DNA of 64,000 nucleotides, taken from NCBI GenBank assembly GCA_017506865.1, contig JAFCMP010000190.1:434001-498000 (forward strand), given 5' to 3'. A program made the translations under genes and the position numbers. Positions 1,500 to 62,400 of this stretch are shown here, one piece after another (within the stretch, counting starts at the first letter, position 1; each line of letters begins with the position of its first letter). This DNA comes from Tribonema minus (taxonomy: Eukaryota > Sar > Xanthophyceae > Tribonematales > Tribonemataceae). Below the pieces are notes generated by a model. The model made no database searches. It saw only the letters and a list, made by a program, of their open reading frames with translations, and had not been told where the DNA came from.

Positions 1500-4400
1500 A
1501 TGGGCTGCGTGCTGTCACAGCCGGTGATGGCCACAGACGCGACGGTGAGTTGGCATTGTTGCCACTGCAATGTCTGGCCTCGCCAACACGGTCGACAGAG
1601 GTCGTCGATGAAAACAGCAGCAGCATGGCTGCGCTGAGACAGAGAGGCATGCAGTGCCCTCTGCTCATTTGAGTATGTGCCGAATTCTCGATTGTAAGGA
1701 ACTTTGCCATGCCCTCCTGCATTTGAGAACACTGATGCATTGTCCTCTTTGCGCAGACCGCGGAAGTGGAGAAGCAATTACAGGAAGCACAAGACAAAGA
1801 ACAATATCAATTCAAGGTGAGCTGCGCTGGTGCTTGTGGCAACGCCTGAGTGTGGTTTTCCTGCAGCCTCCTCGTGCAGCGCAATGCAGTGTCAGCAGGC
1901 ATCTTGCACGGTCTCTGCGCCCTAATACTGCTGCATGTCTTGCATCATGCCTGCACGTTGTGCTCACTGCAGATACTGCTGCTGGGAGCGGGTGAGAGCG
2001 GGAAGTCCACGGTGGTGAAGCAGGTCAAGCTTATATATAAGGGAGTGGTGACGGCGAAGGAGAAGGAGGTGAGACAGCACCAATTGTTGCAACGGAGGGT
2101 GATGTTTGTGGCAAGCTCGCGCAAGGCAGATGAATAAAAGGGCGCCCGCACTGCAAAGCAGCAGTCGGCAACCCCTCTGCTCGCAACAGCAGATGCTGCA
2201 CTTGTTGTCATCTCCTAGAGAGATGCGTGGCAGATGGACTCGCTGCAGTTGACGTGACACAGGCGGCAGCGCCATGTGTCGCCACCCATGCAGGGCTGCC
2301 TGGGCTGCTGTGGCTGCTGCAGCTCTTAATGTGTATCGCGGTGCTTCGCCATTGTGCTACACAGAGCCTGATGAGGCATGGCGCACGTGGGTCTCGCATG
2401 ACCACATTTGCATAACGCACCTTGCCTGAGAGTAGACATAATTTTCGATCTGGTGCCGGTGATGATTGGCAACAGACATTCAACTCAGCGCCTTGTACCC
2501 CCAATTCACTCATCCAAGCGCACCGCTGGTGCTGTCCATCACTACCCCATCCCTCACACCCCCTGCGCCCCCCCTCCCCCCCCCCCCAGGAGTACACGCA
2601 CGCGATCCGCCGCAACGTCATCGACAGCATGCAGACCATGCTGGACGCGATGGACTCCTTCGACATCGCGCTGGCGCGGCCGGGCAGCGCGGAGGCGGCG
2701 CAGCGCGTGCGCGCGGTGGACGCGGAGGCGACGCTGGAGGAGTCCCTGGCGCGCGACGTCACGGCGCTGTGGGCGGACGAGGGCATGCGCGCGACGTACG
2801 ACCGTCGCGACGAGTTCTGGCTGCTGGACGCGAGGTGCGTGTGCGCGGTACTATTCAAGGGTACTCTGAGCGATGCTGTAACACAGTGTATATGTAGCGG
2901 ATGCGGAGGCGACGCTCGAGGAGTTTCTGGCGCGCGACGTGACGGCGCTGTGGGCGGACGAGGGCGTGCGCGCGACGTGCGACCGCCGCGACGAGTTCTG
3001 GCTGCTCGACGCGAGGTGCCTGCGCGTGTCTGCGTGCGCAGGCTGTCCGTGTGCGCGCGTGCGGGGTGCCTGCGCAGCGAGCCTGCTCGCGCAGCGCTGT
3101 GTGGCTGCTCGACGCAAAATGCATGCGCGCGCGCAGCGGGCGACGGTGGCCGTGCGCTGAGTGCTGCCGTAGTGCGACTGATTGGAAAGCGCTCAGGGGG
3201 GGGGGGAGGTGGGCGCTCGCAACACGGTACGACCACTCTGTGGCCCGGGACCAGGGAACGCGCACGACGCACGAGGCACCGCATCATGTTATGGCGAGAC
3301 GCCTGACGCGAGCCTGCCCGGAGCGCTGCTGCCGAGTGCAGCTAACAAGGCAGCGCTCAGGGGGGGCCCTCGTGACGCGACTGATGGGTGGGGGACGGCG
3401 GAGGAGAGCCATGCACGAGGCGCCGCGACGCGGTCCGGCTGCGCGACGCAGGGTGGCGCGCGGAGAGCGCTGGCGATGGCGGTGAACGATCGTACGCGTG
3501 CGTGCGTGTGTGTGTGGCGTTGGCGGTGCGGAGGCGTGGAGCGGCGCGCCCGTGCGTGTGCTGTGTCGACGCAAGGGCGGGGGGGTGTACATATGTACTT
3601 CGAAGTATCCGTGTGCGTTGTTGTGTGAGGTGGGGAAGGGCAGGTATCGGCGCAGCGCGCACTGCGCGTGCTGCTTGCGCTATGCGCATCCGGCAAGGGC
3701 CCATCGCAGGTATCGCCAAGAGACGGTGCGCGGCCCGGGGGGAAGTGGGGGTCAAAGTCACTGGCATGACGCCTGCGTATGCCCATACATAGGGTATGGT
3801 GAGGGCTCAGGTCTGACCAGCGGCAGTGCTCATTGTATGTGCGCGCGCGAGCGTCGAGCGGTGAGTTGGTGATGCTCACCGACTGGGATGTGTGCCAGGC
3901 GTGCGTTGCTCTTGCGGAGCGATCAGCCACGGAGTGCAACATTCGGAGCTCTGGTATGCTCAACAAGCGGCGTGCGTTACGTGTCAGTACAGTCCAACCA
4001 GTGGCTGCACCACGTCATAGTGCAGTGCTGCGGTGCATTGAGCAACATAGCAGTGCAATTTCACAACAACAGCACTGGTGACGCGTGCCATTGGCTGGCG
4101 CGCTGGTCGCCATAGGATTATGCTGCGTCGCGATTGCGGTCGTGCAGGTGCTTCTTAGGGTATGTTGATACCTGCATTGGGGGAAAGTGCAGCGGTTACA
4201 TCCGTAACTGTCGCAGCACCTGCCATATCATGGCACCAGCGGCTAACGCTGTCAGGCAAACTGGTCTGCGCTGTTTCCAGTACTGTACGCCTGAGGCAGC
4301 AGGCACTTATCGGCAGTGCAACGCATCGTGGCGCCATCATGGACTTGGACCTGCGCCGTGCTGGCACAGAATGCTCACGGTTATCGCTGAGAGGAATTTG

Positions 4401-59400: not shown

Positions 59401-62400
59401 CAGAGAGTAGGTTATGAGTGCAGAAAGCCCCCTTCTTGTGTAGTCCTATGTATTGTAGCATGACAATGTCAGGACAAACAGCGGTGTTCATCATGATCCT
59501 TCACGCATTTGGGTCTGGCAAGGCCTGCAACCGCTGAACGTTGCGGCACTCGTGCTTTTTCACACCCATTTTTGTATGAAGTGGGGGCGAGTTCGGCGCC
59601 CATGAGTGCACAAAACTTGCAGCGGCAGCCATGACATGACATCAGGGCCTGCTGCATTGCCACCCACATGTCAGAGGTGTCATATGCAAAAGCAGCAGTG
59701 CTCATGCTCGCTGCCCTGACGCGCGCATCGTGACGGTGCGTGCCTCACTCCAGGGCGCACCAAGTACTTCATTGAAGAGATCCTGCGCGACTTCACCATC
59801 AGCGATGACCACCACGCCACCAACGCGAAGGAGGTGAGCCGGCGCGCTGCTGAACAAGCGATACGGCATGCACGTATTTGTGTATATATATACATGCACA
59901 CACTTCAATGTACACGTTGTATGTATTCACAGGCCGTACGCCTGCATCCCATTGTAATTCTGCATTCCTGCGCCGGTGACGCACCTGGTCCCGCGCACAT
60001 CCCCAAACCTCGCCGCAACTGCGCTCGCAAGCCTCCGGTTCCCATTTCGTGGAGAGCTGAGCGCTGCTGCCGCCCCCTCTCTCTCTCTCTCTCGCGCGTG
60101 CGCGCTCGCGTCAGGGGCACGAGCTGTCTAGCCGGTGGAAGATTGAGAGCCTGCGCTACTTCAACCCCACGGGTGCGCACCCTAGCGGCGACATCGGCGA
60201 GGACCCCCGCGGCCCCCCCAACAACCTGGCGCCGTACCTCAGTCAGGTAAATGAAGGAGGGGAGGGGCTTGTCGTGGTTCATGGCCACGCGGGGGGGGGG
60301 GGGGGGGGGGGGGCTTGTCGTGGTTCGTGGCCAAGTCAACCTACGGCCAAGTCAGAGGCAATGCAAGCAGTCATCGCGAGGCAGCATTGACCGCTGTGAC
60401 ATGGCTACGCAGATGGCCGTGGTTCATGGCCAAGTGGGGGGGGGAGGGGGGGGGAGCGGGCGTATCACGGTTCATGGTCAAGTCGATTCACGGCCTCGTT
60501 CGAGGCAATGCAAGCAGTTATCGCCAGACGGCATCGACCAATGTGACAGGCTGCGCTGATGGGCTCTAACGCCAAGGGTCAGGGGGTTGTTTCGGAAGGG
60601 GAGCGCTGCACCAGTGCAGCGTGCACCTCTGCTATGCAGCAGGGAAGGCTGGGAGGGGGTGGCTCGCGCGGGGGCAGCGGGCGCAGCGGTGTTGGCCATT
60701 GGCAGTGCAGGGTGCAGGGGGGTTCAGCAGGGACGGAGGGGGGGGGGGGGGGGGGGGGGGATGCAGCGCCGCCAATGGGGAGCGGCGTTGGCAGCAAGTA
60801 GTCGTGTTCTGAGCGCTGGTCCAAGTCGGCGTGCTCCGGTCCTCTTCGCCGCCTGATACGCATGGCACGCTGGCCAGTGCTCTGCCACTTGTCAGGAGGG
60901 GCGCCCGGCGGCAACAAGAAGCTGACCGCTCCCTGTGGGGGTGGGGGTGGGGGTGAAGGCACTGTGCGCTGAGAAGCTCGTGGTACTTCAAGTTGAGGTA
61001 TCCCACAGATCCCCACCCACAGCTACTGACTTGGCAGCTGCCTGAAGTGGGAAGGAACCAAGCAGCTCACGCGGTCGAACCCTGCGCGATACTGCCGAAA
61101 CGTGAGCTACCATCATCATTTACGGACTGAACATCATTCACGGACTGAACATCATTAACGGACTGAACTCCCCTCGCTGTTCAACTCGTGAACGCAGGTC
61201 GCTGTTGGTCGGCGGGAGCAGCTGACCATATTCGGCGGCGACTACGATACGGTGGACGGCACGGGCGTGCGCGACTACGTGCACGTGCTGGACCTCGCGG
61301 AGGGGCACCTCAAGGTATGTATGTACAGCAACACTACCCACTACCTACCTACCAGTGCCACACGTCAGTCATCATGTCTCGGGTTCATTTGGCGGAGAAG
61401 CGCCTGTGAGGTTTGTCTGAACACGCAGTACTCTTAAGCGGCACGAGCGCCGCGATTGCCCAGCAGATGATGCTGACGCAGCAGCGTGGTGAGCTCGGTC
61501 ACGTAAGCGGGGTGCGTGCACAGGTGCCAGATTTCTCATGTGCAGCAGCGTCACCGGGAGGCTGGGCTCGTTGCATGTTGACTGTCAACATCAACAATGT
61601 TCAAGCACTCACGCCTTCGCAAGCCCCATTGTTTCGACGGCACACCTTTGCGGTGTACATTTGAAGGCGGTTGTAGCTTTTGCCAACCTGCACGTGTCAA
61701 TGTCACACAATTGCACATTCTCCCCCAAAGTCTGCGCAGCTCCCATCTGCGGTCCCGGCGGTCACCTGAATGCGCATTGTTTTGTCGGGCGGCGCATGCA
61801 GGCACTGGAGTACCTGGACAAGGTCCCCTGCGGCTTCCACACCCACAACCTCGGCAGCGGCTCCGGCTACAGCGTGCTGCAGATGGTCAAGGCCATGGAG
61901 AAGGCCAGCGGAAGACCTGTCCCCCATGTGTAAGTATGTAGGAAAATAATCAGGGTTAGGGTTAGGGCTACCAAGGCTGGAGTTACGGTTAGGGTTAGAG
62001 CTAGCGCTGACTGCGCCCGCTCATCACCTGTCTTGGGTAGGCTGAGACTCTAGATGTTTGCATTGCTAGGCTGTAAGTCTGCACTGGTGGGGCCTGCTGG
62101 TCCCCATGTGTGAGTATGTAGGGTAATAAGCAGGGTTAGGTTAGAGCTGGAGTTGTGGTTAGGGTCAGAGCTAGCTGTTACTGCGCCCATTACATAGTCA
62201 CCTGTCTTGGGTAGGCTGAGACTTTGGATGCTTGCATTGCTAGGCTTCCATTCTGCACTGGCGGGGCCTGCTGATGATGGAAAGCCACAGAGCCGTGAAA
62301 ATGGCAGGTGGAATGGACCCATCTGCCCTATGCCCGCTTCCTGGCATGTGCGAGTGCAAGGTTGCTGTTACTAGTTCTCTGTGCTAGATCGTGCACCCCT

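Follow-up and report, generated by a model that had tools for sequence, protein, structure and literature searches.

Why would introns contain the edges of their own exons? This question is raised by a 64-kb stretch of eukaryotic DNA from Tribonema minus (assembly GCA_017506865.1, contig JAFCMP010000190.1, positions 434,001 to 498,000; G+C content 59%), hereafter the window, in which an initial annotation had described degenerate direct copies of exon ends, with their splice sites, in the adjacent introns. These copies are termed echoes below, and positions are counted from the first base of the window. The comparison was based on 34 exons with 63 splice junctions (29 donors and 34 acceptors) modelled in five genes, which encode G-alpha, myosin, acetyl-CoA hydrolase, a GALE-like protein, and dynamin. 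At each junction, a query of at most 100 exon bases plus 15 intron bases was aligned to no more than 700 bases of the adjacent intron, and matches with a score of at least 30 were retained; 30 shuffled pairings per junction (1,890 in total) and the reverse-complemented introns served as controls. An exon-edge copy is present in the adjacent intron at 19 of the 63 junctions, compared with 0.07 predicted from the shuffled pairings, and in the reverse complement of the same introns no exon-edge match reaches this score at any of the 63. In agreement with the initial annotation, which had proposed this self-alignment against shuffled pairings, the echoes of this window are local and share the orientation of their source, and their density in neighbouring introns is confirmed as a real observation.

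Eighteen of the 19 echoes run across the splice junction; the exception, at 20894, ends one base short of it (−1). Echoes accompany 14 of the 29 donors versus 5 of the 34 acceptors (p 0.006–0.009) and belong to 17 of the 34 exons, spread over four of the five genes, which is close to, and slightly below, the "about twenty exons in five genes" first claimed. Over the aligned part, identity between echo and source ranges from 75 to 100% (75–92% for 13 of the 19 echoes), as would fit the earlier description of copies at all stages of decay, and the longest exonic copy, at 117 bp, is in line with the upper bound given there. A self-BLAST of the window (E ≤ 1e-3) returned 53 direct matches at offsets no larger than 1 kb; of the 12 inverted matches, 11 lie at offsets of up to 50 bases. 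Among exons with both ends placed, none is matched at a distance above 1 kb in the self-BLAST table. The distribution is uneven. Junctions with an echo number 4 of 13 in the G-alpha gene, 13 of 28 in the myosin gene, 1 of 12 in the acetyl-CoA hydrolase gene, 1 of 5 in the GALE-like gene, and 0 of 5 in the dynamin gene, so that the first two genes together differ from the other three (17/41 versus 2/22, p = 0.009), and several 2-kb bins contain no local duplication. The pattern had been called genome-wide, an extent that is not shown by 63 junctions in one window with so uneven a distribution. A match to a database entry or to L001, a compact myosin homologue, is available for 12 of the 17 echo-bearing exons, to which 14 of the 19 echoes belong; the remaining five (5497, 17286, 19850, 43724, and 61802) were placed by reading translations only, some of them after the repeat had already been noticed.

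All echoes lie on the forward (+) strand, and the local duplications have offsets mostly of 55–230 bp. In the G-alpha gene, the last 117 bp of the exon at 2590..2834, which was placed by homology, are copied together with 11 intron bases at 2899..3026 (offset 181, 92% identity on the exon side), beyond a 53-bp spacer. A second donor echo, at 5743..5780, derives from the exon ending at 5576, which was read from the translation. The two acceptor echoes of this gene are found at 7747..7780, where CAG marks the start of homology to the exon starting at 7927, and at 8381..8502, nearly head-to-tail with its source at the exon starting at 8605. The myosin gene is the richest. Its exon ending at 13601 has a short donor echo at 13806..13824 with GC in place of GT, and at 14407..14816 an exon end is followed by three more tandem copies, each carrying CTGCAG/GTGAGC; the donor at 14470 is the real one and those at 14585, 14695, and 14802 are echoes. 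Single donor echoes occur at 16964..16996 (exon ending at 16934), 19238..19256 (exon ending at 19174, identity 19/19), 24655..24696 (exon ending at 24461), and, more weakly, 25417..25442 (exon ending at 25320). Two downstream copies each follow the donors at 17363 (copies at 17435 and 17530, within 17331..17553) and 19966 (copies at 20062 and 20189, within 19930..20248), the exons of both having been placed by eye. The exon ending at 23583 has one echo at 23640..23694 that is identical at 54 of 55 positions and ends at +7, and an older one at about 23761–23790. Acceptor echoes of myosin exons are located at 18263..18465 (exon starting at 18572, head-to-tail, offset 186), at 23951..24045 (exon starting at 24132), and within 20445..20735, where the echo at 20525–20592 of the exon starting at 20756 is joined by more intronic copies at offsets of 78, 136, and 214. 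In the acetyl-CoA hydrolase gene, 67 exonic bp from the exon ending at 43966 recur at 44026..44098 (91% identity, end at +6), and in the GALE-like gene the exon end at 61929 and its copy lie head-to-tail at 61922..62273 (offset 180, 81% identity); both exons were read from translations. Comparison of match length with offset identifies three duplications as head-to-tail or nearly so (8381/8518, 122 versus 137; 18263/18449, 209 versus 186; 61922/62102, 182 versus 180), as are the four copies of the myosin donor 14470, with a unit of about 110 bp in the array at 14410–14810.

Echoes differ from their exons about as sequence released from coding would. The expected number of exon-side differences was taken as half of the divergence on the intron side, to which a quarter of that value was added by assumption for the exon branch, and was summed over seven pairs in which homology runs into the intron; the 8605 pair, in which source and target overlap, was left out. 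The sum is 42 observed versus 41.9 expected, with scatter between the pairs (observed/expected 12/9.4, 3/11.7 for 20756, 8/5.9, 8/6.0, 1/4.7, 2/1.2, and 8/3.0 for 17363). In 22 pairs, a set that counts some exons repeatedly and includes one pair, 14282, with a score under the threshold, the differences are distributed over the codon positions as 13/27/46, which places 46 of 86 (53%) at third positions. This share of about half is near what reasoning leads one to expect for an unconstrained copy opposite a constrained exon. When the exon is extended to the echo donor, 14 of 18 extensions run into an in-frame stop; GT is kept at 17 of 18 donor echo positions, which were chosen by the author from 13 donors. 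Because of the divergence total, the codon positions, the in-frame stops, and the retained GT, taken together, the echoes look like unconstrained decoys. Coding constraint on the echoes, which had been suspected by eye from a few pairs, did not survive the complete count.

The edges of exons were also compared with the interior of introns, with 40 bases on each side of a position and with low-complexity windows left out. By this measure, a local direct repeat spans 12 of the 29 donors and 4 of the 34 acceptors. The corresponding counts are 51 of 361 for intron positions no closer than 150 bases to a junction and 14 of 473 for positions in unannotated stretches; at 160-bp spacing, 11–20 of 103–115 intron positions (10–17%) are spanned. 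These counts make it clear that local duplication is a general process in introns, and since wholly intronic duplications exist, exon edges are not its sole target. Junction-spanning copies also stay detectable longer because the exon cannot drift freely: in simulation, the frequency with which such a copy remains detectable is 1.3–1.8 times that of an intronic copy. In part, exon edges simply make a general process easy to recognise. The earlier proposal of repeated duplications across splice junctions that leave decoy-like sites agrees with the junction count of 19 against 0.07 and has to be widened to include the wholly intronic duplications. The enlargement of introns that it called for is only partly shown, with local direct repeats making up 11% of the intron bases examined in the G-alpha gene, 26% in the myosin gene, 8% in the acetyl-CoA hydrolase gene, 31% in the GALE-like gene, and 0% in the dynamin gene.

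The explanation proposed here, which is considered quite probable, is neutral, local, and direct duplication across splice junctions, with the junction site next to the exon body kept and the inner copy decaying. Small local direct duplications, often head-to-tail, would be frequent in introns. Where such a duplication extends over a splice junction, the site beside the exon body would stay in use, and the other copy, consisting of part of the exon and a splice site, would be left in the lengthened intron to decay without constraint. Local, same-orientation, junction-spanning copies are present far above chance, and their divergence fits no constraint. We infer that duplication took place by replication slippage or through break repair involving either template switching or templated filler, and that the outer splice site continued to be used. 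Backward slippage would give rise to the head-to-tail cases, and the spaced ones would follow from break repair in which one end is copied again and filler is added. A simulation of tandem duplication predicts that 75–95% of copies span the junction, compared with the 18 of 19 observed, whereas random copying of exon pieces would not predict junction spanning. Under the proposed scheme, an added donor would sit downstream of the used one, whereas an added acceptor would sit upstream and may be chosen first; donor echoes may be commoner because an extra downstream donor is easier to tolerate than an extra upstream acceptor.

Several observations weigh against this explanation. In the 8605 pair the exon part is identical at 35 of 35 positions and the whole 122-bp block is only 87% identical, and the 20756 pair departs from the neutral fit; both departures could be patches of conversion. 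The 361 interior intron positions gave, at a score of 30, 79 direct matches and also 15 inverted ones. Once detection is allowed for, donors exceed the intron background at most settings but not at every one (P 0.0002 to 0.16); acceptors equal it or fall below it (P 0.009 to 0.53). Detection bias at its upper limit could explain the donor excess, and a genuine preference for donors, though likely, lacks proof. The main unexplained feature is an early stop of homology past the donor. When the intron-side ends were determined by anchored extension at 13 donors (the 14th, 20894, was omitted as its echo does not span the junction), homology was found to stop 5–11 intron bases in at seven of them (2834, 13601, 16934, 19174, 23583, 24461, and 43966), with ends at +5, +6, +6, +6, +7, +7, and +11. 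The exon sides of these seven echoes are 85–100% identical to their sources (91–98% at 2834, 43966, and 23583). In simulations of plain tandem duplication with neutral decay, which omit large intron rearrangements, this early-stop class amounts to 9–21% (binomial for 7/13, 6e-5 to 0.008); the grouping was noticed post hoc in a small sample. The two copies in the seven cases are separated by 22–199 bases. Three of the freshest (2834, 23583, and 43966) have spacers of 53, 49, and 53 bp that show no convincing match elsewhere in the window, and because of these spacers the three cases are not simple head-to-tail copies now. The two longest spacers share short stretches with other places in the window.

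These early stops and spacers lend themselves to a different account, in which breaks occur preferentially within the intron shortly after the 5′ splice site, for example at transcription-linked structures, and error-prone repair copies the upstream stretch again and inserts filler. Because the breaks fall past the donor, echoes would end near +6 and be set off by a spacer, as is seen in the ends of 7 of the 13 donors and in the 49–53 bp fillers of the three fresh cases, and donors would be richer in echoes than acceptors. Telomere-type TTAGGG runs (or their complement), which mark repaired breaks in mammals (PMC7215372), may point the same way: seven occur in the window, three of them in modelled introns, and double units number 20, whereas 100 simple shuffles average 0.01. 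The account is held to be possible but clearly less probable than neutral duplication, as homology runs 19–144 bases into the intron in the nearest echo of the other six donors, the clustering of ends is post hoc with small numbers, and the donor consensus alone can match unrelated sequence over about six bases, so that the true end may be the exon edge itself. It is unlikely, though worth stating, that 5′ splice sites are breakage hot spots in this lineage, from which introns grow at their 5′ end by serial exon-edge duplication, leaving ladders of competing donors.

That the echoes are functional decoys or regulatory splice sites under selection is judged improbable. Such a role would agree with the intact GT at nearly all donor echo positions, with the stops reached by most extensions, as decay-coupled regulation would need, and with an identity of 84/90 at +1 to +6 over the 15 pairs profiled. 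However, +1 to +6 is not clearly better conserved than the exon part of the alignments (86 differences over 935 sites), the pairs were chosen by similarity around the junction, and both the divergence totals and the codon positions agree with an absence of constraint; selection for the donor consensus was rejected on the first two of these points. Mobile introns of the introner type are far less probable still as the source of the pattern. Introners resemble the present case in tying repeats to introns in protists, and some carry direct and inverted repeats (PMC7789003, PMC9860276). The introns of the window fail two defining introner features, because among the 27 introns with both ends placed, terminal inverted repeats are not above control on average (mean 12.3 versus 12.4, with a single intron at 20 versus a control 95th percentile of 18) and there is no shared, dispersed family. 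Their echoes are only local, and the best six cross-intron scores (41–51) were taken, without an alignment check, as simple or telomere-like repeats. An assembly artefact has very little to recommend it, since doubled haplotypes would be near identical, and the majority of echoes are 75–92% identical to their source.

Neutral duplication across junctions has relatives among described processes. Human introns derived from tandem arrays, reportedly described by Zhuo et al. in 2007, would resemble the present case in being built of tandem copies. Templated insertion by polymerase theta or by microhomology-mediated break-induced replication likewise makes short local copies, accompanied by filler; random nearby templates would also copy exon interiors, however, whereas the copies here nearly always span the junction. 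In one potato RdRp gene, a tandem duplication across an intron–exon boundary is described (PMC4974935). As in the window, a local direct duplication crosses the splice junction and brings splice signals with it; in potato, one recent event gave rise to a new intron and inserted exon sequence, whereas the copies here lie inside introns that already exist, are found at 19 of 63 junctions, and mostly involve donors. An older model of intron gain (Rogers 1989, Gao and Lynch 2009, and Hellsten 2011, as cited in PMC4974935), for which Drosophila cases are given (PMC2891723), also derives extra splice sites from local duplication. In that model an exon segment that bears AGGT is duplicated in tandem, and this exonic duplication creates the intron, whereas here an existing junction is crossed and an existing intron is padded. 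Junction-crossing tandem duplication is a kind already known, and what is new seems to be its density, which reaches some three in ten junctions and roughly half of the donors. No description of such a density was found in a limited survey of titles and abstract openings that took in few subscription journals or preprints; the initial claim of novelty seems to hold for the density and gives way, for the mechanism, to the single-case precedent in potato. Published junction-crossing events, as far as these sources go, were described from isolated genes. If the pattern proved to be genome-wide, this lineage would offer a view of introns growing by local duplication, at many stages of decay within a single genome, and would make measurable the rate of junction-crossing duplications, the choice between real and copied splice sites, and the frequency with which copies become new introns or alternative exons.

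The genes that carry these junctions were identified to differing degrees, and exon borders were set by eye in all of them. Database searches identified G-alpha (about 1.9–8.8 kb, + strand), the myosin motor exons (13.4–25.3 kb, + strand), and dynamin (47.2–51.9 kb, − strand). For acetyl-CoA hydrolase (41.9–45.3 kb, + strand), the last exon has a Pfam match and the remaining exons were read from the translation, and the GALE-like gene (near 61–63 kb, + strand) takes its name from its translation alone, with no database support. A tblastn match links L001 to 10 of the 14 myosin motor exons, exons 18572 and 19089 match solved myosins, exons 17286 and 19850 were placed by reading against the L001 protein only, and the order of the motor exons is backed by the continuous L001 protein. 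Among viral contigs, a search found no relative of the window. L001 (JAIYDP010000339.1, 9788–11552), a single locus from a scan of bacterial and archaeal genomes, encodes a eukaryotic myosin motor on a contig filed in a Verrucomicrobiaceae genome bin, and the contig looks like misbinned eukaryotic DNA. In the 27 introns, 26 splice-site pairs are GT-AG and one is GC-AG, that of the myosin intron at 22187–22195 (CAG/GCAAGG), which is backed by the continuity of the L001 protein. Rfam and tRNA scans of the window returned no matches.

Several G-alpha and dynamin exons and the entire 25.4–39 kb stretch lie outside the exon models, and further echoes are probable in the latter. Blocks at 35193, 35380, and 35654 (within 35193..35700, + strand) are probable donor-type echoes of a putative exon, and a second putative exon is followed at 37948..38716 (+ strand) by an array of 69–70 bp units, of which those inspected carry CACGTAAGC-like donor sites; both exons are without homology confirmation. 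Telomere-type runs were located at 8309–8327, 15785–15807, and 21461–21477, in modelled introns, and at 28174–28201 and 32336–32461, in the last of which two opposite runs meet head to head. Outside the modelled genes, a tandem array with a 95-bp unit at 53016–53259 (2.5 copies, 97% matches) is among the most similar local copies of the window. Finally, a 64-bp stretch is shared at 83% identity between 13684–13747 and 29189–29252, with a weaker third copy on the other strand at 53303–53354, and is possibly an old dispersed repeat.

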